Of a stretch of DNA of 64,000 nucleotides, positions 29,171 through 43,211 are shown one piece after another. Under the pieces are notes generated by a model. It made no database searches. It was not told the origin of the DNA and worked only from the letters and a program-made list of their open reading frames with translations. The first letter of the stretch is position 1. Every line of letters begins with the position of its first letter. The stretch is taken from NCBI GenBank assembly GCA_003054655.1, contig QAYZ01000016.1:1302001-1366000 (forward strand), in the 5' to 3' direction. The DNA is from Spartobacteria bacterium LR76. Lineage in GTDB: Bacteria; Verrucomicrobiota; Verrucomicrobiia; Chthoniobacterales; Terrimicrobiaceae. A program made the position numbers and the translations under genes.

Positions 29171-31468
29171 ATGCATTTTATTGACTGGCTCATCGTCCTT
29201 GTTCCCGTGATCGGGATTCTCTGGTTATCCGTCTATTCAAAGCGTTATGTGAGAGGAGTCGCGGATTTTCTCGCGGCAGGCCGTACGGCCGGACGCTACG
29301 TTCTCTCGGCCGGCGACATGACGTCCGGCCTGGGCATCATCACCCTCGTCGCCCTCGTCGAGGCCAAGTATCAGGTGGGCTACGCGCTCACCTTTTGGGA
29401 GTACCTCACAGTCCCTGTCGGCATCATCATGGGACTCACCGGATTCTGCATCTACCGATTCCGCGAGACACGCTCGCTTTCCATCGGACAGTTCCTGGAA
29501 ATCCGCTACAGCCGGTCATTCCGCATCATCGCGGCAGGCCTGCGTACCATCTCGGAGATGCTCACCAACGCCATCGGCCCTGCGGTCGCGGCAAACTTCT
29601 TCATTTATTTCCTCGGCCTGCCTCACAAGGTGATGATCGCAGGCATTCCGCTGCCGACCTTTGGCCTGCTCGTCGGCTTCTCACTCTGCCTGTGCATGGT
29701 GGTCATCTGGCCGGGAGGACGCATTTCGCTGCTGATCTCCGATGCCTTCCAGGGCCTCATGAGTTACCCGATCTTCGTCATCATCGCCGGGTATATTTTC
29801 CTCAAGTTCGGTTGGAATGACGCCATTGCCCCCGTGATGATTGATCGCGCTCCTGGCGAGAGTTTCATCAACCCCTTCGATATCGAGAAGCTGCGCGATT
29901 TCAACATCTTCGCCCTCTTCGTCACGATCATGGGCAGCATCCTCAACCGTGCGAGCTGGATCGGCAACGATACCTCCAACTGCGGAAGGACGCCCCACGA
30001 GCAAAAGATGGCCGGCATCCTCGGCACCTGGCGCTCCCTTTACTCCAATCTCATGCTGCTCCTTGTGGCAGTGATGGTCATCGCATTGATGGCGCATCAG
30101 AAATTCGCCGACCAGGCCCATGGCATCCGCCAGCAGTTGAGCCAGAAAGTCGCCGAGGAGGCCGTGCTCGATCCTGAGACACGCTCGAGTCTGGACGCCC
30201 GCTTGAGCGCCATTCCCGTGCAGCGCCATGAGATCGGCGTCGACGCTCCGCTTTCCCGCGAGCAGAACAACGACACTCCCTTCATGACCGCCGCCCACGA
30301 GACCCTCGCGGGCACCCCGGAGGGCAATCTCCAGTTCCAGAAGTTTCGCACCCTTTATCATCAGATGATGCTGCCGGTCGCGCTACACAACATCCTTCCC
30401 ATCGGCCTGATGGGCCTATTCTGCCTGCTGGTCATCATGCTGATGCTTTCGACGGACGACTCGCGCGTCTTTAACGCCTCATCGACCATCGTGCAGGACG
30501 TGATCATGCCTTTTCGAAAAACGCCGTTTACGCCCAAGCAGCACCTGCTGGTCATCCGGCTGGTCTCGACGGGCGTCTGCGTCTTTTTCTTCATCGTCTC
30601 CCTGTTCTTCGTCCAGATCGACTACATCCAGATGTTCACCACGATCATGACCGCCATCTGGCTCGGCGGTGCCGGCCCCATCATGATCTTCGGCCTCTAC
30701 AGCCGGTTCGGCACCACCACCGGGGCATTTTGCTCCCTGATCTTTGGCTCCGGGCTTTCCATCGTGGGGCTATTCTTCCAGCGCAACTGGGCCGAGAACG
30801 TCTACCCCTGGCTGCAAGCGAATGGCTGGGATGTCGCCATCGGCAATCTGCTCCATACCGTCTCCCAGCCCTTCAATCCCTACATCGTCTGGGAAATGAA
30901 CCCGGTGAAGTTCCCCATCAACTCCTACGAGTTGTACTTCATGTCGATGGTCATCGGCATCGCCGCCTACGTCATCGGCTCCTTCCTCACCCAAAAGCAA
31001 CCCTACAACCTCGACCGGCTCCTCCACCGCGGCGTTTACGACGTGGCGGGCGAATTCAAAGAGCCCTTCAAGTGGACCTTCCGCAACGCGTTTCAGAAAC
31101 TTATCGGCATCACTCCCGAGTACACTCTCGGTGACAAGGTGATCGCCTGGTCCGTGGTGGGATATGCCATCGTCTACAAGTTCGGCCTCTGCTTCGTCGC
31201 CGTCCTGATCTGGAATGCCATATCTCCATGGCCAACGGAATGGTGGAGCACCTACTTCTTCATCACCAGCCTGGTCGTGACTGGCGTCATCGGTATCATT
31301 TCCACCTTCTGGTTCTTCATCGGAGGTGTCATCGACATCCGCCGTCTCTTCCGCGACCTCGCCGCGCGCGTCGACAACCCGCTCGACAACGGCATGGTCG
31401 AGGGTCACGTCTCTCTGGCCGACAAAGCCCTCTTTGAAGAACGCACTCACAAAAAGCAGGACGACTAG
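29171..31468 (+). CDS. Sodium:solute symporter (SSS family)
   Basis: A 765-residue inner-membrane transporter with about 13-14 hydrophobic helices. The start MHFIDWLIVLVPVIGILWLSVYSKRYVRGVADFLAAGRTAGRY and the helix MTSGLGIITLVALVEAKYQVGYA are typical of the SSS family, which couples sugar, amino-acid or osmolyte uptake to sodium. An extended soluble loop of about 110 residues (HQKFADQAHGIRQQL ... LQFQKFRTLY) and a C-terminal cytoplasmic tail make it longer than the usual 500-600 residues. It lies opposite the kinase-phosphatase operon, convergent with it, and may supply its sugar. Substrate cannot be read. Confidence 0.9.
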   Translation: MHFIDWLIVLVPVIGILWLSVYSKRYVRGVADFLAAGRTAGRYVLSAGDMTSGLGIITLVALVEAKYQVGYALTFWEYLTVPVGIIMGLTGFCIYRFRETRSLSIGQFLEIRYSRSFRIIAAGLRTISEMLTNAIGPAVAANFFIYFLGLPHKVMIAGIPLPTFGLLVGFSLCLCMVVIWPGGRISLLISDAFQGLMSYPIFVIIAGYIFLKFGWNDAIAPVMIDRAPGESFINPFDIEKLRDFNIFALFVTIMGSILNRASWIGNDTSNCGRTPHEQKMAGILGTWRSLYSNLMLLLVAVMVIALMAHQKFADQAHGIRQQLSQKVAEEAVLDPETRSSLDARLSAIPVQRHEIGVDAPLSREQNNDTPFMTAAHETLAGTPEGNLQFQKFRTLYHQMMLPVALHNILPIGLMGLFCLLVIMLMLSTDDSRVFNASSTIVQDVIMPFRKTPFTPKQHLLVIRLVSTGVCVFFFIVSLFFVQIDYIQMFTTIMTAIWLGGAGPIMIFGLYSRFGTTTGAFCSLIFGSGLSIVGLFFQRNWAENVYPWLQANGWDVAIGNLLHTVSQPFNPYIVWEMNPVKFPINSYELYFMSMVIGIAAYVIGSFLTQKQPYNLDRLLHRGVYDVAGEFKEPFKWTFRNAFQKLIGITPEYTLGDKVIAWSVVGYAIVYKFGLCFVAVLIWNAISPWPTEWWSTYFFITSLVVTGVIGIISTFWFFIGGVIDIRRLFRDLAARVDNPLDNGMVEGHVSLADKALFEERTHKKQDD

Positions 31469-31765: not shown

Positions 31766-32923
31766 CTAGGGCAGGGACAGAAAGCCCGCGTCCACCGCGA
31801 ACCGCACGGCCTTGCCAGTCGACGATGAAAATATCGCCTCGCCTGGAAGAAATGCCGCCTTTGCGACATCGGCAAAACCTTTCGGGATATTGACTGCTCC
31901 CTGGATGTAGCGCACCTCAAAAGGGGACTTCCCGCGGAGATTCACGCTGGTCGGAATGCCCTGGCGGCTTATCGGATTGGGACGGCTGGATTCCGCCACT
32001 CCGCGATCGAAGTACATGCATCCATCCTCGATGCCGAGGCAGGTGTTTCGCCCGCCCCATGGAGGCTGGTGACGGCCTTTGTTCTCCACCCAGAAAAGCC
32101 TGCCGGGCATGACCGAGGGATTCTTGAGGGCAAACCACATCCAGTTTTCCTCGGTATTGATCGCCGCAACCCAGGAGACCTTGTCTCCGTGAGGTCGCTC
32201 GAACTGCTGCAGGAGATCGCAAAAGCCGGGACGGGCGGGAAAGGCCGAATAGTCCGCCGGAGGCTCGCCCTTGAAAATCGAAGGCACCCTCGCCAGGGAG
32301 CGAAAGGCGGCGTCCCGGGCCAGAAACTGATACTCGCCCTGGGCGGGATCAGCCAATGCCACAGGGTAGGTCCGGCCGAGAGCGAAAGGACTGGTGAAAA
32401 TGCGTAAGGCCCGCTCCTGCCGGGGCATCGCGAGAACCGCATGGTGCGCAAAGGGGGTGCGACCGCGAAATCCGTCGATCACCGTGCGGCAATAGACGGC
32501 ATTGTGGCCATCGCGGAGGGAGAACTCGCGGTGCACCACGCCGGGGCGCACCGTCGTCTCCAGGCTGATGCGCAGGCTCGTCGCCTTCTCCGAGCGGTCG
32601 GCTTTCTCGAGTTTCCACCGGCTGCCAGCGGTTTCGCCATGAGGAGCGTGCTGCTCGCCGCGCCAGGCCTCCTGGTTTGCACCAAAGGGGAGGCAGAAAA
32701 AATCGCCCCGCAACGGAACCATCGTGGCGGGCATGGGGATCGGGCGCTCATCCTGCCAGGGGCTGATGTAGTAGGGCTGGACGGGACGCGCTCCGTCCCG
32801 GCAAAAGGTCACGGGCGCCATGTGGCCGCCGAGTTCGGTCACGGCCAGGCTGACACAGTCGTTGCCAATGACCCAGGACGGCTGGGAGGCTATCTTTCGT
32901 CGTTCGGGGAGGGATCGCTTCAT
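31766..32923 (-). CDS. Galactose-mutarotase-like protein
   Basis: A 385-residue protein with features of the aldose-1-epimerase/mutarotase-like supersandwich: WVIGNDCVSLAVTELGGHMAPVTF near the N-terminus, RGDFFCLPFGANQ, VHREFSLRDGHNAVYCRTVIDGF and FAHHAVLAMP. No signal peptide. It is the last gene of the operon starting at 36598; its ATG overlaps the stop of the SIS gene by four bases. It may interconvert anomers or remodel the sugar entering the pathway, but related folds are also lyases, so the exact reaction is open. Confidence 0.6.
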   Translation of the reverse strand: MKRSLPERRKIASQPSWVIGNDCVSLAVTELGGHMAPVTFCRDGARPVQPYYISPWQDERPIPMPATMVPLRGDFFCLPFGANQEAWRGEQHAPHGETAGSRWKLEKADRSEKATSLRISLETTVRPGVVHREFSLRDGHNAVYCRTVIDGFRGRTPFAHHAVLAMPRQERALRIFTSPFALGRTYPVALADPAQGEYQFLARDAAFRSLARVPSIFKGEPPADYSAFPARPGFCDLLQQFERPHGDKVSWVAAINTEENWMWFALKNPSVMPGRLFWVENKGRHQPPWGGRNTCLGIEDGCMYFDRGVAESSRPNPISRQGIPTSVNLRGKSPFEVRYIQGAVNIPKGFADVAKAAFLPGEAIFSSSTGKAVRFAVDAGFLSLP

Positions 32924-33540
32924 TGATGAATGGCCGCAAATCTATCCTCAAGCATCAGGCAGAGACAATGATAGATCGGCAGATGAAACTCCTGCACCAG
33001 CGGCGTGCTCGTGGCAGGCACGCAGATACAGATGTCGGCCAGTTCCTTCAGCCTGCCCCCGCTTTCTCCCGTGAGAGCGAGCACCGGGAGTCCCCTCGCC
33101 CGCGCCACCTCGGCGGCGCGGCAGACATTGCGCGAATTGCCCGAGGTGCTCAGAGCGGTCAATACATCCCCTTTCCGTCCCAGGGCGAGAGTGAGCTGGG
33201 CAAAGACAAACTCGGGCTCCACGTCATTGGCGAAGGCGGTGGCCAGGGCCGGAAAGCCGGTGAGCGGGATGACGGGGAAGGCCCATTGCAGGCGAGACGC
33301 CATGTCGTCGGAGATTCCGTGCCGCATCTCCGGAGGGAGCGGTCGGAGCTGGCCAAAGCCTTTCAGCAGTTCGCCCGCCCAATGGTCGGCATCCGAGGCG
33401 CTGCCGCCATTTCCGCACAGGAGCAATTTTCCATCCCGGAGAAAAGTTCCCTCCAGGAGTTCATAAGCCTTGGCGATCTCCGGCAGGCAGGGCTGGAGTG
33501 CGGGGTAGCGGAAGATAAGCGACTCGAGATGGTGTGACAT
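32920..33540 (-). CDS. SIS-domain sugar isomerase, GmhA (phosphoheptose isomerase)-like
   Basis: A 206-residue single SIS-domain protein. The family motifs LLCGNGGSASDADH (residues 41-53), LSTSGNS and ATSTPLVQEFH are those of GmhA, which turns sedoheptulose 7-phosphate into D-glycero-heptose 7-phosphate. The QEFH Glu and His occupy catalytic positions of GmhA. It lies 2 bases after the deoxyhypusine-synthase-like gene and overlaps the mutarotase-like gene by 4. With the kinase-phosphatase fusion upstream it would complete the first three steps of a heptose-1-phosphate pathway, or an analogous route for another sugar phosphate. Confidence 0.85.
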   Translation of the reverse strand: MSHHLESLIFRYPALQPCLPEIAKAYELLEGTFLRDGKLLLCGNGGSASDADHWAGELLKGFGQLRPLPPEMRHGISDDMASRLQWAFPVIPLTGFPALATAFANDVEPEFVFAQLTLALGRKGDVLTALSTSGNSRNVCRAAEVARARGLPVLALTGESGGRLKELADICICVPATSTPLVQEFHLPIYHCLCLMLEDRFAAIHQ

Positions 33541-33542
33541 GG

Positions 33543-34649
33543 TTATCTGGCAAGGGCCTGGGCGAGGGTGAGAAAAAAATCGCGATTGTGGGCGCTGACG
33601 TAGCGCATGGTGCCGCCCATGCGGCTGAAGGTTTTGCAGTACCGCAGATAGTAGGCGGGATTGTCCATCGGGGGTTCGCCATCGCTTTTCCAGTCCCAGG
33701 AGCTCTTCGCGAGATCGACGATGACCATGTGATGCCTGGTAATTTTGCGGCCCTCCTGGAGTTCCAGGTTCTGCGACATGGAGAGGGATTTTTCGAAAAT
33801 CATCGGCGACATCACAGCGGAACCGACGGACAGATAGACACCGCCCTCGAGGCCATGCACCTGCGCGGCAAAGGTGAGGAAATCCCGCAGAGCGGCCCGC
33901 CCGATGGCCGCGCCATGGTTCACCGGGTGATTGTAGATGATGTCGTGGCCGATCATGGGATGCGCGGTGAAGGGAACATTGAGCCGATAGGCGGCGGCCT
34001 GGGCGCTGTATTTCTTGTACGGGTGCGGGATGGAAAGAAAACCCGCCGGGACAGAGTTGCGCCGGATCGTCGCCAGCAGGTCGAGCGCGGCAGCCGCGTG
34101 CTCGGGGTGCCCCGTGGCAGAGCGTTTCGCGATCCCGAGCAATTCGTCCTCCGAGGGAATATCGAGCCCCTCGCGTTCGATCATCTTTCCGACGGCCTCC
34201 CCGTAGCCGAGTCCCTCATAAGCTCCGACGACGAGGGCGAGGTTCAGATTGAATCCGGTTTCCTCCCAGATGCCGAATTGACCCTGGGCCACATTGGCCC
34301 GCACGTCTTCGCTGCTCAGTCCCTGAAAGGAAAACTCCCAGTCGTGAATGATGCCCGCCCCATTCGTCGCCAGCAGGGTCACCCACCCCTGCTCCATGAG
34401 CTGGATGAGCACAGGCGCGAGCCCGTTCTTGATGGTATGCGCGCCGAAGGCCAGCATCACGGGCCGGCCCGCCGCGCGCGCGGAGCGGATTTTCTCCACG
34501 CACTCCGCCAGGTCCTCCGCCGCAGCGGGATCGAGAGGCCGGGGCGGCGTGTCGGGATGAACGGCGTCGGACTCGATGGCCACCTTGTTGGGGCGTTCGG
34601 AAAGCCGGCGTACGCGCAGCCTGGTGCGATCGAGCTGAGGGTGCGACAT
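33543..34649 (-). CDS. Deoxyhypusine-synthase-like protein of unknown function
   Basis: A 368-residue protein. The start MSHPQLDRTRL at 34649 overlaps the upstream stop by one base (TAATG) and is preferred to the longer frame. The region AGRPVMLAFGAHTIKNGLAPVLIQLMEQGWVTLLATNGAGIIHDWE followed by SSEDVRANVAQGQFGIWEETG and IGHDIIYNHP has a Rossmann-like, deoxyhypusine-synthase-like look; bacteria lack eIF5A modification of the archaeal/eukaryotic kind, so a different NAD-dependent reaction is more likely. It is embedded between a PfkB-HAD fusion and a GmhA-like isomerase in a tight operon, which points to sugar-phosphate metabolism. Function not recognised; family assignment by eye only. Confidence 0.5.
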   Translation of the reverse strand: MSHPQLDRTRLRVRRLSERPNKVAIESDAVHPDTPPRPLDPAAAEDLAECVEKIRSARAAGRPVMLAFGAHTIKNGLAPVLIQLMEQGWVTLLATNGAGIIHDWEFSFQGLSSEDVRANVAQGQFGIWEETGFNLNLALVVGAYEGLGYGEAVGKMIEREGLDIPSEDELLGIAKRSATGHPEHAAAALDLLATIRRNSVPAGFLSIPHPYKKYSAQAAAYRLNVPFTAHPMIGHDIIYNHPVNHGAAIGRAALRDFLTFAAQVHGLEGGVYLSVGSAVMSPMIFEKSLSMSQNLELQEGRKITRHHMVIVDLAKSSWDWKSDGEPPMDNPAYYLRYCKTFSRMGGTMRYVSAHNRDFFLTLAQALAR

Positions 34650-36598
34650 TATCGGCCTCCGAGATTGCCCAGGCGCAGGAAACTCCACAGCGCCTCCCAT
34701 TGGGAAAAGTCTGGAATGATGGCATGAGCCCCCGCCCGCACGAGACGCGGGCGCTTGTCGAGATTCGTCCCGAAACGCCGCTTTTCATCGCTCGCGATGC
34801 CGACGGCATAAGATCCCCGGCGATTTGTTTCGCGAATCTCCACCGGCCCATCCCCGAAGGCGACGAGCTGCTCAAATGCTCCGCCCACCTCCTGAAGGAT
34901 GCGCTCGATGACCATGCGCTTGGCGTCCTTGGTGATCTGGCCGATCGAGCCATATATCCCCCCGTCGAACACGTCGGCATACCCCAGGCGCGCCGCCTCG
35001 ATCTTCACATCCGCCTCGTCCGTGCCGCTCGCGAGATAAAGGCGCACGCCGGCCTGCTTCAAGGCATAGAGGAAAGGCACGGCGCCCTTGATGGTAAAGT
35101 CGCTGATCTCAAGTTCACCGCGGTCGAGCTTTTCCAGGCGCCGGTCGACGAGAGTCTGGAGGTCCGTGTTATAGATCGCCTTGTACTCCGCAGGCGTGAG
35201 AAGCGACTCCTCCGGCACGAGGCCAAACTCGCGGATGAGATCCACCAGCCCATGCATCTGGGCGATGGTCTGGATGCCGGTCGTGCGCTCGATGAATTCC
35301 CTCACCCGATACTGCGCGCGATGAAACGTGGCCGCCTCGGCATCGCGGAAGTGCTCACCCAGCACGGCCTTGATCATCATCGGCTCCATGATCTGCTCCC
35401 AGCCCTCGCGCAGAGTCGAGATGGTGCCGTCGTGGTCAAAGATGGCGTACCGGATGTTCAGCGCCGCCGAGGGTTCCGTGATCACCTCGATCTCGGTGCC
35501 GTCGAGATAGCGCGCCCGATGCGGTGACTCGCTCAGCTCGGGATTGTAGTAAAAGTCGGCATTGGCCCCGAGGGCGAGGACTTCGCCCGGCGAGGCCGTC
35601 CCGGTCTGGAAGAGCTTCTGCGCGGTGACAGCCGCAGCCACATTGGCCACGAACGCAGCCGCAGCGATATTGACTCCCGAGGACAGGATGGCCGCGAGGG
35701 TGGCCACAAAAGTATCTCCCGCTCCCACGGGATCGATGCGCCCGGGAAGCTGCACGCCAAAGATCTGCCAGACCACATCGCTGGAAAACACGAAGCAGCC
35801 CCGATCCCCGCGAGTCACCACCAAAGGCGCCCCCCAGCGCGCGTAAAGCTCCCCGGCGCGCTGGGCCAGCTCCTCCACGGGAACGACATCCCCGGGCTCC
35901 AGGGAAATCCCGCACGAGCGCATGACCTCAGCCTCGTTCAGCTTATGAACCGCCGAGGTGTAGGCTTCATGATATTTCCGGGAGTCCACGACGAAGCACA
36001 CCGAGGGATGACGCTCCATCACCTCGCGCAGCGCGCCGCGAAAACCCTCGTCATCGTGGATGCTGCCGATCACCTGATGATTGATCAGGACGACGGACAC
36101 CTTTTCCACGATCTCCTCCAGCCGCTCGAAAAACTCCCGCTGCGTGTCGGCGGAGAGGCGATTGAAATTCCCATGGTCTATCCGGTTGAGTTCCCTGCTA
36201 TCGACATAGGGCTTCACATAACTGTGCGTGGCCCATCCCTCCACCTGCGAAATCAAACCGCGCTGGTCAACGCTGGGATGTTCCAGCAACCGGCGGAGCT
36301 CCCTTCCAAACGGGTCCTCACCCAGCACCCCCACGGGGTAGATGCGATGCGCGCCGAGCGCGACCAGGTTGGCCACAACATTGCCCGCCCCGCCCGGCGA
36401 GTACCGCTGCTGCCGCACGGGCTGGGTCCTCAAACCCGTCTCGACGGAATCCTCCGAGGCCGACGGGTCGATCGTCCAATACACATCCAGACAGAAATCG
36501 CCCACCACTGCCACCGAAGCCATGGAGAGCTTGTCGAGGATGGAAGCGATTTCGGCAGGCTCCAGGATGTCAAAAGGCTGAAGGGAAGATTTGCTCAT
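34649..36598 (-). CDS. Bifunctional PfkB sugar kinase fused to HAD phosphatase
   Basis: A 649-residue fusion. Residues of about 25-365 are a PfkB/RfaE-type kinase: VAVVGDFCLDVYW, SPGGAGN (67-73) and IDPVGAGDTF with catalytic Asp295. Residues of about 384-649 are a HAD phosphatase: FDHDGT with Asp388 and Asp390, LASGTDE as motif II, and FGDGPVE as motif IV. The start MSKSSLQPFDILEPAEIASIL at 36598 is chosen because the longer frame runs through the operator at 36653 into the regulator gene. In heptose synthesis an RfaE-type kinase and a HAD phosphatase act in sequence, so the fusion would make the two-step phosphorylation-dephosphorylation in one polypeptide. First gene of the operon to 31766. 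The substrate is inferred only. Confidence 0.87.
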   Translation of the reverse strand: MSKSSLQPFDILEPAEIASILDKLSMASVAVVGDFCLDVYWTIDPSASEDSVETGLRTQPVRQQRYSPGGAGNVVANLVALGAHRIYPVGVLGEDPFGRELRRLLEHPSVDQRGLISQVEGWATHSYVKPYVDSRELNRIDHGNFNRLSADTQREFFERLEEIVEKVSVVLINHQVIGSIHDDEGFRGALREVMERHPSVCFVVDSRKYHEAYTSAVHKLNEAEVMRSCGISLEPGDVVPVEELAQRAGELYARWGAPLVVTRGDRGCFVFSSDVVWQIFGVQLPGRIDPVGAGDTFVATLAAILSSGVNIAAAAFVANVAAAVTAQKLFQTGTASPGEVLALGANADFYYNPELSESPHRARYLDGTEIEVITEPSAALNIRYAIFDHDGTISTLREGWEQIMEPMMIKAVLGEHFRDAEAATFHRAQYRVREFIERTTGIQTIAQMHGLVDLIREFGLVPEESLLTPAEYKAIYNTDLQTLVDRRLEKLDRGELEISDFTIKGAVPFLYALKQAGVRLYLASGTDEADVKIEAARLGYADVFDGGIYGSIGQITKDAKRMVIERILQEVGGAFEQLVAFGDGPVEIRETNRRGSYAVGIASDEKRRFGTNLDKRPRLVRAGAHAIIPDFSQWEALWSFLRLGNLGGR

Positions 36599-36652
36599 GG
36601 TGGCAAGGGAAAGCTCTGGCAGCATCAACCGCACACAAGCTCCCGTCAACCA

Positions 36653-36674
36653 AAAATGTAATGCTTTACATTTT
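36653..36674. promoter_or_regulatory. LacI-type operator with 9-bp arms, core TGTAATGCTTTACA
   Basis: AAAATGTAA and TTACATTTT are perfectly complementary around TGCT. The site lies in the gap between the LacI-family gene (stop 36693) and the kinase-phosphatase gene (start 36598), right where a repressor of that operon should bind. The core resembles the usual LacI-family form with a central CG/GC. Confidence 0.72.
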
Positions 36675-36692: not shown

Positions 36693-37661
36693 TCAAACGA
36701 GTGTGGCCCGGGGAACGAAGGCGGCTTCAAAGCTGCGCGCCTGTTTTCTCCGCCCGAGGGCAAGGTCCACCGCACAAGCCGCCATGTCGTCGAGAGGCTG
36801 GCGGTACGTGCTCAGCGGAGGGTGGGAAAAGGCCGCCTCGGCGATGTCATCCATACCGACCACCTTGACCTTCGCGGGCACGGAAAGCTTGAGGTCCCGG
36901 CAAAACGCCATCGCCGTCAGGGCTGACCGGTCATCATTTCCGATGATTGCGTCGATCCTGCGGGAACGCATCACCCCGGCAAACTCGACCTGCGTCGGAG
37001 AGCCCGGCAGCACCGTAGTCTCCGCGCCAAAACAGGCGGGAGCCAGCTCGCCAAACGCGCGGCGCCGATCCGCGTGATCCGGCTCCTCCGCTCGCCCGCC
37101 AAAGAAGAGCACCCGCTTGCATCCGCTGTCCTTGAACCTTCGCAGCGCATCCGCGATCCATCCCGCCTGGTTGAGCTGGACCCCCTTCCAGTCCGGACAC
37201 GCGGGCAGTTTTCCCATGAGGCAGACCACGGGTTTACGGGACTCGAGCAGGGCGGGAATCAAGACATCGTGATGACGCGGATAAAGGAGTATCCACGCAT
37301 CACAGCGCGAGCGTTGGAGAGTTCTGCGGGCATGGGCGATGGTCGCCTCCTCCCGACGATCGACCGGGCAAACCAGGAGATCGAGATCATTGGCCACGAG
37401 ATTCTTGGAGAGCGCAGCCAGGATGCGCTGGGCAAACACAGCCTCCGCGCCTTCCACCTCCAGCGGCCAGACGAGACCGATCACGTCGTGCCGACCGCGC
37501 TTGAGCGCGCGTCCGCTCGGACTCGGGTAGTAGCCAAGCTCCCGGGCCAGCGCGAGGATGTGCTCACGCGTATCGGGACGCAGCTTCTCCGGCTCGTGGA
37601 AGGCGCGGGAAACGGATGCGGTCGATACCTCTGCTCGCCGGGCAAACTCCTGAATGTTCAT
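36693..37661 (-). CDS. LacI-family transcriptional regulator
   Basis: A 322-residue regulator starting MNIQEFARRAEVSTASVSRAFHEPEKLRPDTREHILALARELGYYPSPSGRALKRGR, a standard LacI helix-turn-helix with hinge, followed by a periplasmic-binding-like sensor (VIGLVWPLEVEG; RVLFFGGRAEEPDHADRRRAF; VKVVGMDDIAEAAFSHPPLSTYRQPLDDM). The longer frame to 37736 adds 25 residues with no family match. It is directly upstream of the kinase-phosphatase operon on the same strand, with the palindrome at 36653-36674 in the gap, so repression of that operon is likely; the inducing sugar is unknown. Confidence 0.92.
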   Translation of the reverse strand: MNIQEFARRAEVSTASVSRAFHEPEKLRPDTREHILALARELGYYPSPSGRALKRGRHDVIGLVWPLEVEGAEAVFAQRILAALSKNLVANDLDLLVCPVDRREEATIAHARRTLQRSRCDAWILLYPRHHDVLIPALLESRKPVVCLMGKLPACPDWKGVQLNQAGWIADALRRFKDSGCKRVLFFGGRAEEPDHADRRRAFGELAPACFGAETTVLPGSPTQVEFAGVMRSRRIDAIIGNDDRSALTAMAFCRDLKLSVPAKVKVVGMDDIAEAAFSHPPLSTYRQPLDDMAACAVDLALGRRKQARSFEAAFVPRATLV

Positions 37662-37789: not shown

Positions 37790-38896
37790 ATGCGAAATAG
37801 TGTTGGCCGTCCGCGGAATGACATTCATGATCCTTTGGTGAAGCTCTGCCTGGCTGTTCTGCTCCTGTTCATCTGGCTCGCTCACGGAGAAGCACTAGGC
37901 GAACCTCGCTTCGAGGCAGGACCTCCGAAAACTCTTGGCGACTCCTCCTGGCGGACCCGCGCCAGACTGTCGTGGTTTCCCGATGGGAACATCGGTGCGC
38001 TGAGACGCAATGCGTCCACGCTCCTCTATGCGGCGAATGGTCCCAAGCCCGTCCGGCTAACCTTCGGCAAGGACGGTCACCTCATCGCCGTGCAGCCCGT
38101 GATGATCGAGGGAACCGCGCAGGGCTACCATTACCTCGCCGGCGGCCCAATTTATCGCGACCCCGTGTCGGGTCGGGTCCTGCTTTTCTACCATGCCGAG
38201 ATTCATCGAGGGTCAGAGAAAGACTTCTCCTCCGTTCTCGGTCTGGCCATCCAGGTTGATGAGGAAGGGTTGCGCTTCCGTGATGCGGGGGTGATTTTCC
38301 GGCCATCAGCTCACCGCAAATCAGGTGCATTCGATGCGGGCGGAGCGCCTGTCGTCGTGCGTGGCGGTGACTTTTATGTGTACGCGCGCGATCTCTCACC
38401 GGGAGGAACGGTCAATAACCTCATCGTCCTGAGCGCTCCGGTAAAGGAAGTCATCTCTGCTGCGGCAAAAGGGAAGCCATTCGCCTGGCGAAAGTTTTTC
38501 AACGGCGCGTTCTCAGAGCCGACTCTCGGAGGGCTCTCGTCGCCGTTGGAAAAGGGCAATCCTCCCGTCCGTTGGATGGATGTCAGCTTTCACCCAGCGC
38601 TCGGGCTTTACATTCTTGTCGTTGCCGCGCCGTCAGGCCGCGGGACGGCACTGTTTGCCTCCTGGTCCCGCGATGGGCTCCATTGGGTCCGGCGGGTCCG
38701 GCTGACGGATCATCAGGGCGGCGAGTGTTTCTATCCGTCGATCATCAGTTCGCCGCAACGCGAGTGCGGGAGCGAGTTCCATCTCGACTACACCTACTCT
38801 CGCGAGGGCGAGTGGGATCGCTGGAGCGATGCCCTATGGCTCCGCCGGACCGTGCGGATCACGGATGCGAACCGCGAATCAGAAAACGCTCGCTAA
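37790..38896 (+). CDS. Secreted beta-propeller-like protein, possibly GH43/GH32-related
   Basis: A 368-residue product from ATG 37790; a GTG at 37838 would begin exactly at a signal peptide (KLCLAVLLLFIWLAHGEALG) and may be the true start. The mature part has repeating strands of the five-bladed propeller kind (YLAGGPIYRDPVSGRVLLFYHAEIH; GGAPVVVRGGDFYVYARDL; WMDVSFHPALGLYILVVAA; FASWSRDGLHWVRRVRL; HLDYTYSREGEWDRW), seen in GH43, GH32 and related proteins. Catalytic acids were not assigned. It is divergent from the LacI gene and its stop overlaps the convergent beta-helix gene by four bases. Function unknown. Confidence 0.6.
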   Translation: MRNSVGRPRNDIHDPLVKLCLAVLLLFIWLAHGEALGEPRFEAGPPKTLGDSSWRTRARLSWFPDGNIGALRRNASTLLYAANGPKPVRLTFGKDGHLIAVQPVMIEGTAQGYHYLAGGPIYRDPVSGRVLLFYHAEIHRGSEKDFSSVLGLAIQVDEEGLRFRDAGVIFRPSAHRKSGAFDAGGAPVVVRGGDFYVYARDLSPGGTVNNLIVLSAPVKEVISAAAKGKPFAWRKFFNGAFSEPTLGGLSSPLEKGNPPVRWMDVSFHPALGLYILVVAAPSGRGTALFASWSRDGLHWVRRVRLTDHQGGECFYPSIISSPQRECGSEFHLDYTYSREGEWDRWSDALWLRRTVRITDANRESENAR

Positions 38897-40458
38897 AGGG
38901 AAGCCTGCTCCGAGACGCAAAAGGCGCCCGGCACCAGTTCCGACGTCTTGCTGCGAAGCACGCCATTGAAATCCCGGTCCACCTTTTGATTCGGCTCGGA
39001 GGGCTTTAGGTAGACGGGGTCGGCAATACCCGCCGCCAGCGCACCCTTCTTCGGTCGGTAATCTCCCGCGGCATAATCCGTAAAGATGTCCGTACCCGCC
39101 TTGAGCAGCATGCTGTTCGCATCCTGTGAGGTCGCAGCCTTCCAGTCCTCAAAGGTCTTGAAGACGACACCTTGTTGCGCAGTGCGCAGCCAGGAGGTCG
39201 AGGCAGCGCCGACAGCATAGATATTATGGTTCGGCGCGAAGTTCTTATACTTGTCCTCCGGCGGTTCGGCATTCTGGTAGAACATGAAGAAGTTCCCACT
39301 CGGCTTGAAGAGCAGGCCGTTGTTGAGGATCGTCCGGCCCGAGTAGCCCCACAGGCACGCGTAGCCCTCAGAGCCTCTCGCCACAAATCCCTTCAGTACC
39401 AGCGGGGCCTTGGTCAGATCGAAGATGTACGTATTGTTTACGAAGACCGTGTCCGAAGCCTCGCGATGATAGTCGCCAAGGGTCGAGTTGATGAAGAGGT
39501 TGTTGGCAAAGAAAAGAGTGTCGGGCCCTGGCACCCTCCCGACGCTCTTGTAAAATGTGGAGTTCTTCACGATGTTGCGCTCGATCCGGAAAAAACGGTC
39601 CTGATACTCGGGCTCGTCCCGTCGAAAACTCATGTCCAGAGCCGCGTCGCTGCCCGGGCGCAGCCAATTCTCGACCACGCAGTTGAAAAGCAGGCCATTG
39701 CTCGCCGAGTGGACCAGCACGCCGTCATGGTTTCTCCCCACGCCGTCATCCTCCGTATTATCGTGGATGTAGCAGTTTTGCACGATCTGCCAGCCGGGAA
39801 GCTTCGGGTTCTTCGCGGTCAACGCGGGCAGCCCCGGCTTGCCATCACCGTTGTTGATCCAGATGCCACCGCCGAGACGGTGCCGCCCGTTGCCGGAGTA
39901 GTCAATGCCCGCGATTTCGACATTGTCGATGAAGACATCCCGGCACCCTTCGAGGCGGATGTGGTACATCTGCACGGTGCCCGCAAGATAGAGATTGCGA
40001 ATGGTTACGCGGTTCGCCCCCTCGATGTAGATCGTGTGGTACTGGCGATAGTCGGGATTTTCGCTGATGATCGACAGATTTTCGATCACCACCTCGTCAG
40101 CATCCTCAATGTAAAACAACGTGGTCCCAAACTTGTCCGCCTTGGGCTGCTGCCACTTGACCCTGAGATTGAGGTTGGAGATCACGACCTTCTTTTCCCC
40201 GCGCCACTCCTTTTTCACCTGCTCGCCCTGCACGTCCTGAAACTCGATGCCTGCGAGGTTCTTCCGGGCCAGCACATCTCCCGTCGGCAGCCTGGACCAG
40301 TCGCTTTGATACGCAGCAGTGTATTTCCCGTGCTCCGGGATGATATCGCCCGTCACGGTCGGCGCAGAGGCCTCCTGGGCGGCAGCGGCATGAAGGAAAA
40401 GGGCCAGGGGGATGAGTACTCCGGCGAAAGTGCCAGGAAGTCTGCGTGCTCGGATCAT
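38893..40458 (-). CDS. Secreted right-handed beta-helix protein
   Basis: A 521-residue exported protein. Its ATG overlaps the stop of the prepilin gene as ATGA, and directly encodes a signal peptide (MIRARRLPGTFAGVLIPLALFLHAAAAQ); the longer frame to 40842 is antisense-like noise over the prepilin. The body shows parallel beta-helix coils (VVIENLSIISENPDYRQYHTIYIEGANRVTIRNLYLAGTVQMYHIRLEGCRDVFIDNVEIAGIDYSG; NCYIHDNTEDDGVGRNHDGVLVHSASNGLLFNCVVEN), as in pectate lyases, alginate-type lyases and GH-type beta helices. Catalytic residues are not assigned. It probably acts on the polysaccharide of the LacI module to its right. Confidence 0.78.
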   Translation of the reverse strand: MIRARRLPGTFAGVLIPLALFLHAAAAQEASAPTVTGDIIPEHGKYTAAYQSDWSRLPTGDVLARKNLAGIEFQDVQGEQVKKEWRGEKKVVISNLNLRVKWQQPKADKFGTTLFYIEDADEVVIENLSIISENPDYRQYHTIYIEGANRVTIRNLYLAGTVQMYHIRLEGCRDVFIDNVEIAGIDYSGNGRHRLGGGIWINNGDGKPGLPALTAKNPKLPGWQIVQNCYIHDNTEDDGVGRNHDGVLVHSASNGLLFNCVVENWLRPGSDAALDMSFRRDEPEYQDRFFRIERNIVKNSTFYKSVGRVPGPDTLFFANNLFINSTLGDYHREASDTVFVNNTYIFDLTKAPLVLKGFVARGSEGYACLWGYSGRTILNNGLLFKPSGNFFMFYQNAEPPEDKYKNFAPNHNIYAVGAASTSWLRTAQQGVVFKTFEDWKAATSQDANSMLLKAGTDIFTDYAAGDYRPKKGALAAGIADPVYLKPSEPNQKVDRDFNGVLRSKTSELVPGAFCVSEQASL

Positions 40459-41147
40459 TTGTCGTATTGAGAACTGCTGATGGGGCGGGTGTCGTAGCTG
40501 CTGAAATAGTTGGGCGTGCCTTTGGTGAAATCCGCCCAGGTGAGCTGGCTCACCAGCACCGGCGTACTGTGACCATCGAGATAGGTGACATTCACCATGC
40601 GGCTGTGCGGCCGGGGCACTCCCTCTGCATACGATTTCGCCCCTGTGCCCGTGAGGATCGAAAAGCTCGCCCAGCGGGAGCCGTCGGTCGCATCGGTGAT
40701 GTAAATCAATTTGCTCTTCTCCGGGATCGCCGCGGCGGACATGCCGGAGGCAAAGGAGTTGAAGCCGAAAGTCCCCCACACCGAGGTCTGCGTCGATCCG
40801 CTCGCGTTCAGCTTGCGCGAGGGGCAGAACAATGTCTTCCACGCCTCCTGCTTGCTGCTCTTTCCCGTGTAGGGATACAGCGCATCCGTCGCGTCCACCG
40901 AGGACCCGACCGTATAGGCCGAAACGGGCATTTGATTGTTGTTATCGGAGAGATAGAGATGCAGTGCCTTGATCCAGGTCTGCTGATTGCTGAGGCACTT
41001 CACCCCCTGGGCCCGGGTGATGGCCCCGCGCATGCCTGGGATCAACACCGCAGCCAGCGTGCCGATGATCGCCACGGTGACAAGCATCTCCATGAGGGTG
41101 AAGCCAGCGACCGAACGGCGCGGGGATCGGAACTTGTGAGGCATCAT
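40455..41147 (-). CDS. Prepilin-type protein with H-X9-DG ending
   Basis: A 230-residue prepilin-like protein starting MMPHKFRSPRRSVAGFTLMEMLVTVAIIGTLAAVLIPGMRGAI, a canonical type IV prepilin leader and methylation helix with Glu+5. The C-terminal part contains PHSRMVNVTYLDGHSTPV, the H-X9-DG pattern of the large family of single prepilin-like proteins in Planctomycetes and Verrucomicrobiota. Longer starts up to 41210 are possible. It is translationally coupled (ATGA) to the beta-helix gene and lies 69 bases after the small secreted protein gene. Surface or pseudopilus role is inferred; no secretion ATPase is nearby. Confidence 0.85.
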   Translation of the reverse strand: MMPHKFRSPRRSVAGFTLMEMLVTVAIIGTLAAVLIPGMRGAITRAQGVKCLSNQQTWIKALHLYLSDNNNQMPVSAYTVGSSVDATDALYPYTGKSSKQEAWKTLFCPSRKLNASGSTQTSVWGTFGFNSFASGMSAAAIPEKSKLIYITDATDGSRWASFSILTGTGAKSYAEGVPRPHSRMVNVTYLDGHSTPVLVSQLTWADFTKGTPNYFSSYDTRPISSSQYDK

Positions 41148-41215
41148 GTCTGGGGGCATGCAGGGGCTCGGGAAAGCGCAGGCCTCCATGGCCGGAAGCG
41201 CGGCGCGCACGGAAG

Positions 41216-41713
41216 TTACTTCAATCGGGTCACCTGGACATCGTCTATCTCGCAGGAACCGGAGGAGCGGAAGCTGATCTCAAGGCTGACGGGGCTGCCG
41301 TCCGCCGGCGCGGTGAAAGTGGTCTCCAGCGCCGTCCAGTTATCTCCCGCTTCGATCGTGCCGGAGTTAAGATATTTGCCATTCAGCAGATTCCTAATGA
41401 TCAGCCGGGCGTCCGAGGAGGAGTTGTTTCTCGCCTTGAGGCTCACGAGGTACTTCTGCCCCGCCTCGAGCTTGCCGAGCGGCTGGATGAGATTCAGCGT
41501 GCGGCCTTCCGGGATGGTCATCACCACAAAGGCCTCGCCGGAGGCGGCACTCCCAGCATCATTGCGCAAGGCAACCCCCGAGGCCGGGACCTTCCAAGCG
41601 GTCAATCCGTCTTCAAAGCTGCCATTCTGGAGGATTTCTTCTCCGCGATTATCGTTGCTATGGGCGTAGGCTACGAGGCCCAGGAGGGAGAGAGCACAGA
41701 TCGCGCGTTTCAT
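41216..41713 (-). CDS. Small secreted CBM-like protein
   Basis: A 165-residue exported protein from MKRAICALSLLGLVAYAHS, preceded by a plausible AAGGAA ribosome-binding site. The mature part EEILQNGSFEDGLTAWKVPASGVALRND ... GQKYLVSLKARNNSSSDARLIIRNLLNGKYLNSGTIEAGDNWTALETTFTAP ... SCEIDDVQVTRL has the features of CBM4/9/22-like sugar-binding beta-sandwiches (NGSFE-D-x-x-x-W, and the final DDV). It is seven bases behind the PEP-CTERM gene, in a prepilin-encoding operon. A carbohydrate-binding accessory role is likely; no enzyme domain is present. Confidence 0.78.
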   Translation of the reverse strand: MKRAICALSLLGLVAYAHSNDNRGEEILQNGSFEDGLTAWKVPASGVALRNDAGSAASGEAFVVMTIPEGRTLNLIQPLGKLEAGQKYLVSLKARNNSSSDARLIIRNLLNGKYLNSGTIEAGDNWTALETTFTAPADGSPVSLEISFRSSGSCEIDDVQVTRLK

Positions 41714-41720
41714 AGGTTCC

Positions 41721-43211
41721 TTAGGCAGATACCTGAGCCGACTGGCGGCGACGAGCACGAATCCAGATCATCCCGGCCGCTCCGCCGAGAAGCAAAGCCC
41801 AGGTCGAAGGCTCAGGCACCGTCGTGATCGTGACAAACTGGTCTCCGAAGCTCGTGGCATTCGCACTGTAGTTCGTTCCAGCCGTGGAGTCGTTGTAATC
41901 AATGACCCAGGTGTTTCCGGCCAGCGTGAAGGTGCTGCCATCGGCATATCCCGTGAAGATGCCGCCGTTCCAGCCTCCCGCCGCCGTGTAGCTGATGAGG
42001 GTAAACTTCGTGCCAGCCGCCAGCGCGACATTGGAACCGATGTCTGTCAGAGACAGAGTCGTCGCGCCGCTCGCGATCGACAGTGCTGCCGTGCTGTTTG
42101 TCGCATAGAGCAGATCCGCTGCCGGCGTACCGCTCGTATTGAGCTCAAAGGCAAAGGTGCCTCCCGTGAAGGTCACGCCGCCTGCGCCGAGGGACTCGAT
42201 ACCCGCCCCAGGAGCCATGGTGCCGCCGGCACCCACTGTCACCTTGCCGGTAAAGCTTCCGGTTCCACCCAGCGTGCCGCCGTTAACGGCAACATCGCCC
42301 GTACCCAGTCCGCTGCCAGTCGTATTATTCACCAGCAGAGTGCCCGCGCTCACGGTCGTGCCCGAGGCATAGGTGTTGCTGCCGGAAAGCGTTTGGACGC
42401 CCGCGCCTGATTTCGTCACGGCAATGCTGCTCGTTCCCGTGCCATTGCTGATCGTGCCGGAGTATTCCTTGGTCGCGCTGCCCGTGATCGCCAGCGTCGT
42501 GACGTATCCCGTGCCCGTCGTCGTCTGGCCGATGGTGCCGCCATTGCCTTCCAGGCTGGCCACATTGATCGTCCGCGCACTAATGCCCGAGAGGTAGGCG
42601 AGGTTAAAGGCACCGCCCGTCATGGACACCGCGCCAAAGGTCGAGTCCGTCGAGGATCGAATGTTGACCGTACCTCCGGAGATTGTCGTCGTCCCAGCCA
42701 CGGAGAGGCCCACGAGATTGTTGGCGGTATCACGGCCAAAATTCACCGTTCCCGCGTTCACCTGGAGGTTGCCACCCACCGAAACCGCAAGCGTGCCAGT
42801 GGCGCTCACCGAGTAAAATGCCAGCGTGCCTGAGTCATATTTGATCACGTCTCCCGTCGTCGAAAAGGTCCGGGCGACAGTTCCGCTCCCTCGGAAGGAA
42901 ATCTGGCGCGAAACATCCGTACCCGCATCAGCGGTTCCGAAGGTGAGCGATGTCATTGTCGCGCTTCCCGAGTTGAGGGCTACAATGGAATTCGTCGTGG
43001 AGGTGTTCACGAGAGAAATCGAATCCGTGCCATTGAGAGCCGGGGTTGATCCCGTGCCTGACGACAATGTCCAACGGGTGGAGGCGTTCCAGTTATCCGT
43101 CGTGTTGTCGGTCGAGACATCAAAGACCGATGCGGAGGCACTTTCAGCACCGAGCATCGCAACTCCAGCGGCAGCGATCAGGGCAGGAAGGTAGGCATTT
43201 CGAGATTTCAT
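41721..43211 (-). CDS. PEP-CTERM protein with autotransporter-associated beta-strand repeats
   Basis: A 496-residue exported repeat protein. Signal peptide MKSRNAYLPALIAAAGVAMLGAESASAS; Ser/Thr/Gly-rich body with PATR-type repeats (KSGAGVQTLSGSNTYASGTTVSAGTLLVNNTTGSGLGTGDVAVNGGTLGGTGSF); C-terminal VPEPSTWALLLGGAAGMIWIRARRR, a PEP-CTERM signal. It is the first gene of the leftward operon of this module and lies opposite the LacI gene, with a cluster of TTCCGGAA-type sites between them. Same architecture as 2784-4688; structural surface role inferred. Confidence 0.9.
   Translation of the reverse strand: MKSRNAYLPALIAAAGVAMLGAESASASVFDVSTDNTTDNWNASTRWTLSSGTGSTPALNGTDSISLVNTSTTNSIVALNSGSATMTSLTFGTADAGTDVSRQISFRGSGTVARTFSTTGDVIKYDSGTLAFYSVSATGTLAVSVGGNLQVNAGTVNFGRDTANNLVGLSVAGTTTISGGTVNIRSSTDSTFGAVSMTGGAFNLAYLSGISARTINVASLEGNGGTIGQTTTGTGYVTTLAITGSATKEYSGTISNGTGTSSIAVTKSGAGVQTLSGSNTYASGTTVSAGTLLVNNTTGSGLGTGDVAVNGGTLGGTGSFTGKVTVGAGGTMAPGAGIESLGAGGVTFTGGTFAFELNTSGTPAADLLYATNSTAALSIASGATTLSLTDIGSNVALAAGTKFTLISYTAAGGWNGGIFTGYADGSTFTLAGNTWVIDYNDSTAGTNYSANATSFGDQFVTITTVPEPSTWALLLGGAAGMIWIRARRRQSAQVSA

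Follow-up and report, generated by a model that had tools for sequence, protein, structure and literature searches.

A LacI-linked operon of Spartobacteria bacterium LR76 combines a kinase-phosphatase fusion, a GmhA-like isomerase and a conserved DHS-fold protein in a candidate heptose-type sugar-phosphate module

Here we describe an operon of Spartobacteria bacterium LR76 in which a sugar kinase fused to a HAD phosphatase is encoded together with a GmhA-like isomerase and a protein with the fold of deoxyhypusine synthase (DHS). The main new point is this last protein, a conserved and uncharacterised enzyme at the heart of the module. The operon lies in a stretch of 64,000 nucleotides (GenBank assembly GCA_003054655.1, contig QAYZ01000016.1, positions 1,302,001 to 1,366,000), hereafter the window, and consists of five consecutive minus-strand genes for a LacI-family regulator, the kinase-HAD fusion, the DHS-like protein, the GmhA-like SIS isomerase and a mutarotase-fold protein. 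We propose that it encodes a variant of the heptose-1-phosphate pathway that is inducible by a sugar and has no nucleotidyltransferase, since related neighbourhoods recur with sugar genes in some phyla and with GmhB, GmhA and nucleotidyltransferase-kinase proteins elsewhere; we regard the chances of this proposal as evenly balanced. An earlier note had described the kinase and the phosphatase as one polypeptide, followed by DHS-like, GmhA-like and mutarotase-like proteins, and the gene calls, the family matches and, for the mutarotase, the predicted fold all agree with it. Its observation of the sequence is confirmed and its heptose-like reading is partly supported; the DHS-like protein, the best conserved companion, was left unexplained there.

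The DHS-fold protein and its enzymatic partners

The profile score places the DHS-like protein (33543..34649, minus strand) in the GSU2086 family, of which it is a clear member in the long form (NF052581, 346.4 bits against a cut-off of 250, residues 6-365). Its predicted model, with a pLDDT of 91, matched the AgrE ornithine-cyclodeaminase domain (Z 18.4), deoxyhypusine synthase (Z 17.8) and archaeal LOR/SDH (Z 17.2). A PDB search with the sequence alone gave no match, a profile search of the PDB gave weak AgrE/ArgZ matches only, and Pfam DS (PF01916) reached 19 bits, below its cut-off of 27. AgrE and DHS use NAD for amine chemistry. By analogy, the DHS-like protein may also use NAD, possibly for a redox-neutral reaction such as an epimerisation. 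The same fold and the weak DS match could also mean that it is itself an amine enzyme, of the deoxyhypusine/homospermidine synthase or ornithine cyclodeaminase type, in an operon making an amino sugar or a polyamine-sugar compound. However, its recurrent neighbours are sugar genes, with no aminotransferase or amine-donor gene recognised in their number, and we consider this explanation quite unlikely.

The kinase-phosphatase fusion (34649..36598, minus strand) runs from an ATG at 36598 to a TAA at 34649 and has 649 residues, with the kinase at about 20-340 and the HAD domain at about 380-649. Both halves score above their Pfam cut-offs (PfkB, 88 bits; HAD hydrolase, 51 bits). For the kinase half, the best model was RfaE domain I (TIGR02198) and the best PDB match was the HldA structure 4e84 (E 1.5e-22), and the nearest PDB sequence to the HAD half was a phosphoserine phosphatase (E 1.5e-4). 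The catalytic D295 of the kinase GAGD motif and D388/D390 of the HAD domain are invariant in 26 fusions. In a kinase tree, in which some deep joins lie on long branches, the cluster of fused kinases also took in a few kinases of genomes where no DHS-like protein was found, and it stood apart from the split kinases, the nucleotidyltransferase-kinases and the second kinase of the genome. By this grouping, the heptose-kinase relatives with which the DHS-like protein is paired come from more than one lineage. In a polysaccharide cluster (L235:6202-9680), a close relative of the operon kinase was also seen beside two genes of GT9, the heptosyltransferase family; the DHS-like protein was not found in that genome.

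The SIS isomerase (32920..33540, minus strand) was assigned by its match to TIGR00441 (GmhA) and by its zinc site, in which H53, E57, Q183 and H191 as well as the channel residue D50 are present by motif. In GmhA the zinc ligands are H64, E68, Q175 and H183, with the channel residue D61 (B. pseudomallei numbering; PMC5705639).

Operon structure and the LacI operator

The fusion and the DHS-like gene overlap by one base (TAATG), and the isomerase and mutarotase-like genes by four; the overlaps of 1-4 bases noted before therefore hold for two of the three junctions, but the DHS-like and isomerase genes are separated by a 2-base gap.

Directly upstream of the operon lies the gene of the LacI-family regulator (36693..37661, minus strand), which exceeds the Pfam cut-offs for LacI (41 bits) and Peripla_BP_3 (70.5 bits). 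A putative LacI-type operator, AAAATGTAATGCTTTACATTTT, stands at 36653..36674 as a 22-bp palindrome with 9-bp arms and a 4-base centre, to which no strand is assigned. Thus both a LacI gene and an operator palindrome in front, the features expected of a LacI-controlled operon, are found at the sequence level. The operator core, ATGTAAnnnnTTACAT, occurs a single time in the 4.75 Mb genome, with one mismatch-free occurrence in the window. It was found directly 5' of the fused gene in a same-genus relative (L042), and, differing at one arm base, upstream of the fusion in a same-family relative (L043), where about 1.3 kb separate the LacI gene from the fusion. Given that the genome has no second copy of the core and that both relatives retain it, the palindrome is very likely a real LacI site, with this operon as its whole regulon; the operator placed in front of the operon by the earlier note is borne out. 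Near the module at three spirochaete loci (L126, L136, L148) there are LacI-operator-like palindromes of the type TGTAACCGGTTACA, which suggests that LacI control may be common to the module.

The last gene (31766..32923, minus strand) encodes a protein with no Pfam or NCBIfam match; its mutarotase-like label comes from fold only, through matches of the predicted model to GalM and YeaD (E down to 2.7e-12). Homologues were detected in 59 of the 388 genomes of the window's phylum that formed our phylum set, mostly unlinked to the module (L205-L224), and among the loci examined the gene adjoins the module only within the same genus; it stands outside the conserved module. A transporter of SSS type (29171-31468, plus strand; 22.7 bits, just under the Pfam cut-off of 22.8), converging on the operon, was considered as a partner and rejected: it lies outside the operon with no operator match nearby, and a close counterpart was not seen beside the module in L042. 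By eye only, a beta-helix-like, a pseudopilin-like and a PEP-CTERM protein are encoded at 38893-43211, on the regulator side of the operon.

Co-occurrence and gene neighbourhoods

Across the phylum set, the DHS-like protein scored above the cut-off in 48 genomes and the full-length kinase-HAD fusion was found in 17, all 17 of them within the 48 (p = 2e-17 on the assumption of independent genomes, which does not hold). The link is more than one of neighbourhood, since the fusion and the DHS-like protein lie on different contigs in 11 of the 17 genomes. Seven further genomes carry split HAD and kinase genes beside the DHS-like protein. In one of these seven (L051:2040-3785), the HAD phosphatase and the DHS-like protein share one 581-residue frame, which a separate kinase gene follows, so that the three parts occur in another fused layout as well.

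A scan of named genomes returned at least 578 relatives of the DHS-like protein, and the best 80 of these were analysed for neighbours. Their hosts include Bacteroidales, Spirochaetes, Planctomycetes, Lentisphaerae and Hydrogenedentes. At 45 of the 80 loci, the same strand carries a kinase and/or HAD gene of this type within 3 kb. Within 8 kb, a gene for a transporter, ROK kinase, 2-epimerase, LacI regulator or alpha-mannosidase was found at 35 of these 45 loci, compared with 3 of the other 35. In Bacteroidota and Spirochaetota the module stands alongside sugar transporters, ROK kinases, 2-epimerases, LacI regulators and alpha-mannosidases, and family checks on representative neighbours confirmed GlcNAc_2-epim, ROK, SSF, GH38 and GH92. 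LacI control had been taken earlier to point to catabolism or induction by a sugar, and the sugar-uptake genes beside relatives of the module support induction by a sugar. The recurrence of the heptose-pathway-like enzymes together with the DHS-like protein in several bacterial phyla suggests a genuine sugar pathway.

The GSU2086 family has long members, which accompany a HAD phosphatase, and short members, which lack about 50 of their residues. Short members at four loci (L048, L049, L050, L167) adjoin a protein joining an RfaE-II nucleotidyltransferase to an RfaE-I kinase, and L049 also has a GmhB-like phosphatase and a GmhA-like SIS protein, a near-complete heptose set; those at L046 and L047 have no such nucleotidyltransferase-kinase partner. 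On the plasmid pDCAR1 of Solidesulfovibrio carbinolicus (L167), the nucleotidyltransferase-kinase, the short DHS-like protein and a SIS protein belong to a NeuB/PseF-type cluster with three radical SAM proteins, possibly for the synthesis of an unusual higher sugar.

Heptose genes elsewhere in the genome

The operon could in principle be the ordinary ADP-heptose route of the organism for lipopolysaccharide, as such a route begins with three steps taken by an isomerase, a kinase and a phosphatase, and the kinase and SIS proteins are nearest to RfaE-I and GmhA. However, the Pfam and NCBIfam search found no nucleotidyltransferase among the five operon genes, in agreement with the earlier note, so the operon holds no complete NDP-heptose set, and it has a LacI operator of its own. 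The note had proposed looking for the nucleotidyltransferase elsewhere in the genome (G000), and it was found at C13:237403-237822 (188.7 bits, above the cut-off). An RfaE-I-like kinase (C13:229182-230150), away from the operon, and two GmhA homologues (C9:497555-498013 and C13:552689-553150) with better matches than the operon protein (181-183 bits, under the cut-off) are also on other contigs. In addition, most relatives lack the DHS-like family, which was found in 6 of 39 genomes; this pattern fits an accessory function. Since the nucleotidyltransferase, kinase and GmhA homologues lie elsewhere, the operon is probably not the lipopolysaccharide heptose route of the organism, and we rate that explanation as very unlikely.

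Proposed pathway and alternative readings

We hypothesized the following scheme for the nucleotidyltransferase-free heptose-type pathway. Repression by LacI through the single operator would last until a sugar, or a sugar phosphate, becomes available. A ketose phosphate and an aldose phosphate of manno configuration would then be interconverted by the zinc SIS enzyme. Phosphorylation at C1 by the kinase half would yield a bisphosphate, from which the HAD half would remove one phosphate. The presence of kinase and phosphatase on one chain suggests that the net effect of the fusion may be an irreversible transfer of phosphate from the sugar end to C1 via the bisphosphate, as in heptose synthesis. 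As an integral part of the pathway, the DHS-fold protein would act as its fourth enzyme and use bound NAD in a redox-neutral reaction, for example to epimerise one intermediate. The inducible control, taken with the uptake genes in relatives, argues that the module would respond to an external sugar, and a seven-carbon substrate is a plausible prediction.

Several observations weigh against this proposal. The proteins miss the equivalog cut-offs widely (kinase half, 122.1 bits against 345 for TIGR02198; SIS protein, 133.2 against 209 for TIGR00441), and the HAD half alone matched no NCBIfam model, GmhB/HAD-IIIA included. Thus the heptose-like steps read earlier from the sequence are supported in part, by a kinase closest to heptose-7-phosphate kinase and an isomerase that keeps the GmhA zinc ligands; the phosphatase is not GmhB-like. 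About 20 genomes have the DHS-like protein with neither the fusion nor a split HAD found at the threshold used, with three candidates scored per genome, and kinases of the same clade are also present in genomes where the DHS-like protein was not found. Best hits and related genomes underlie the neighbour counts, with profiles made from the same loci, and the counts are not independent. In a weak global profile alignment to true DHS, the K340 region falls opposite the SWGK catalytic-lysine motif, out of register. Finally, mannosidases and 2-epimerases suit a hexose equally with a heptose.

This last point leads to a serious rival, the catabolism of a six-carbon manno sugar, in which mannose would be released by alpha-mannosidases, phosphorylated by a ROK kinase and converted by the SIS protein to fructose 6-phosphate, with the fusion and the DHS-like protein acting on a related hexose phosphate. 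The GH38 and GH92 mannosidases, ROK kinases, 2-epimerases and SSS/ABC transporters that accompany the module in Bacteroidales and Spirochaetes are in line with such a pathway. The operon in the window, however, has no ROK kinase, transporter or mannosidase, and its operator is unique, hence no such gene is co-regulated through it. A kinase and a phosphatase on one chain would also waste ATP in plain catabolism, and the kinase and SIS proteins are nearest to heptose enzymes. Taken together, we judge the hexose explanation to be somewhat unlikely.

Beyond the heptose-type pathway proposed for this operon, we put forward a broader and more tentative idea, which we hold to be possible rather than probable. 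The GSU2086 family may comprise the first DHS-fold enzymes acting on sugar phosphates, as NAD-dependent epimerases or rearranging enzymes of an unrecognised heptose-type pathway, with one form serving nucleotide sugars and the other working with the kinase-phosphatase fusion on imported sugars in several phyla. The DHS-like protein, to which no function is assigned, has relatives encoded in at least 578 stretches of species genomes, and the operon offers a compact test set: a regulator with a single operator, a fusion, an isomerase and the uncharacterised enzyme. Action on sugar phosphates, if true, would be a new reaction for a fold known for amine chemistry and would account for a cluster of sugar genes that recurs in Bacteroidota, Spirochaetota and the PVC group.

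Comparison with known systems

The combination had seemed unfamiliar at first, which is only partly so. In Geobacter sulfurreducens, GSU2086, the founder of NF052581, lies between GSU2085 (hldE) and GSU2087 (gmhA) in a 'sugar biosynthesis operon', and all three genes are among those affecting growth on electrodes (PMC5585712). The trio of kinase, DHS-like protein and GmhA-type isomerase was thus seen before in the same order, without a function. However, the Geobacter kinase carries an adenylyltransferase whereas that of the window carries a HAD phosphatase; the DHS-like protein of the window is the long form, about 50 residues larger, and its operon has a LacI operator in front. In the literature searched, with most subscription journals outside its scope, we found no account of the pathway, of the DHS-like protein with heptose, or of a heptose catabolism fitting the module. 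The mannoheptulose pathway, with a ROK kinase, a CysC-like kinase and an aldolase (PMC5507952), was considered and set aside as a different system.

With the ADP/GDP-heptose pathway (GmhA, HldE or HldA/HddA, GmhB, HldC/HddC), the operon shares the classes of isomerase, C1-type kinase and phosphatase. It differs in the missing nucleotidyltransferase, in a phosphatase that is not of GmhB type, in the added DHS-fold enzyme and in proteins that score below every equivalog cut-off. The DHS-like protein in turn shares its fold with deoxyhypusine synthase, the AgrE ornithine cyclodeaminase domain and archaeal LOR-SDH (Z 17-18), but its identity to them is about 10-19% and it misses the Pfam DS cut-off; unlike these enzymes, it sits with sugar genes wherever its neighbours are informative.

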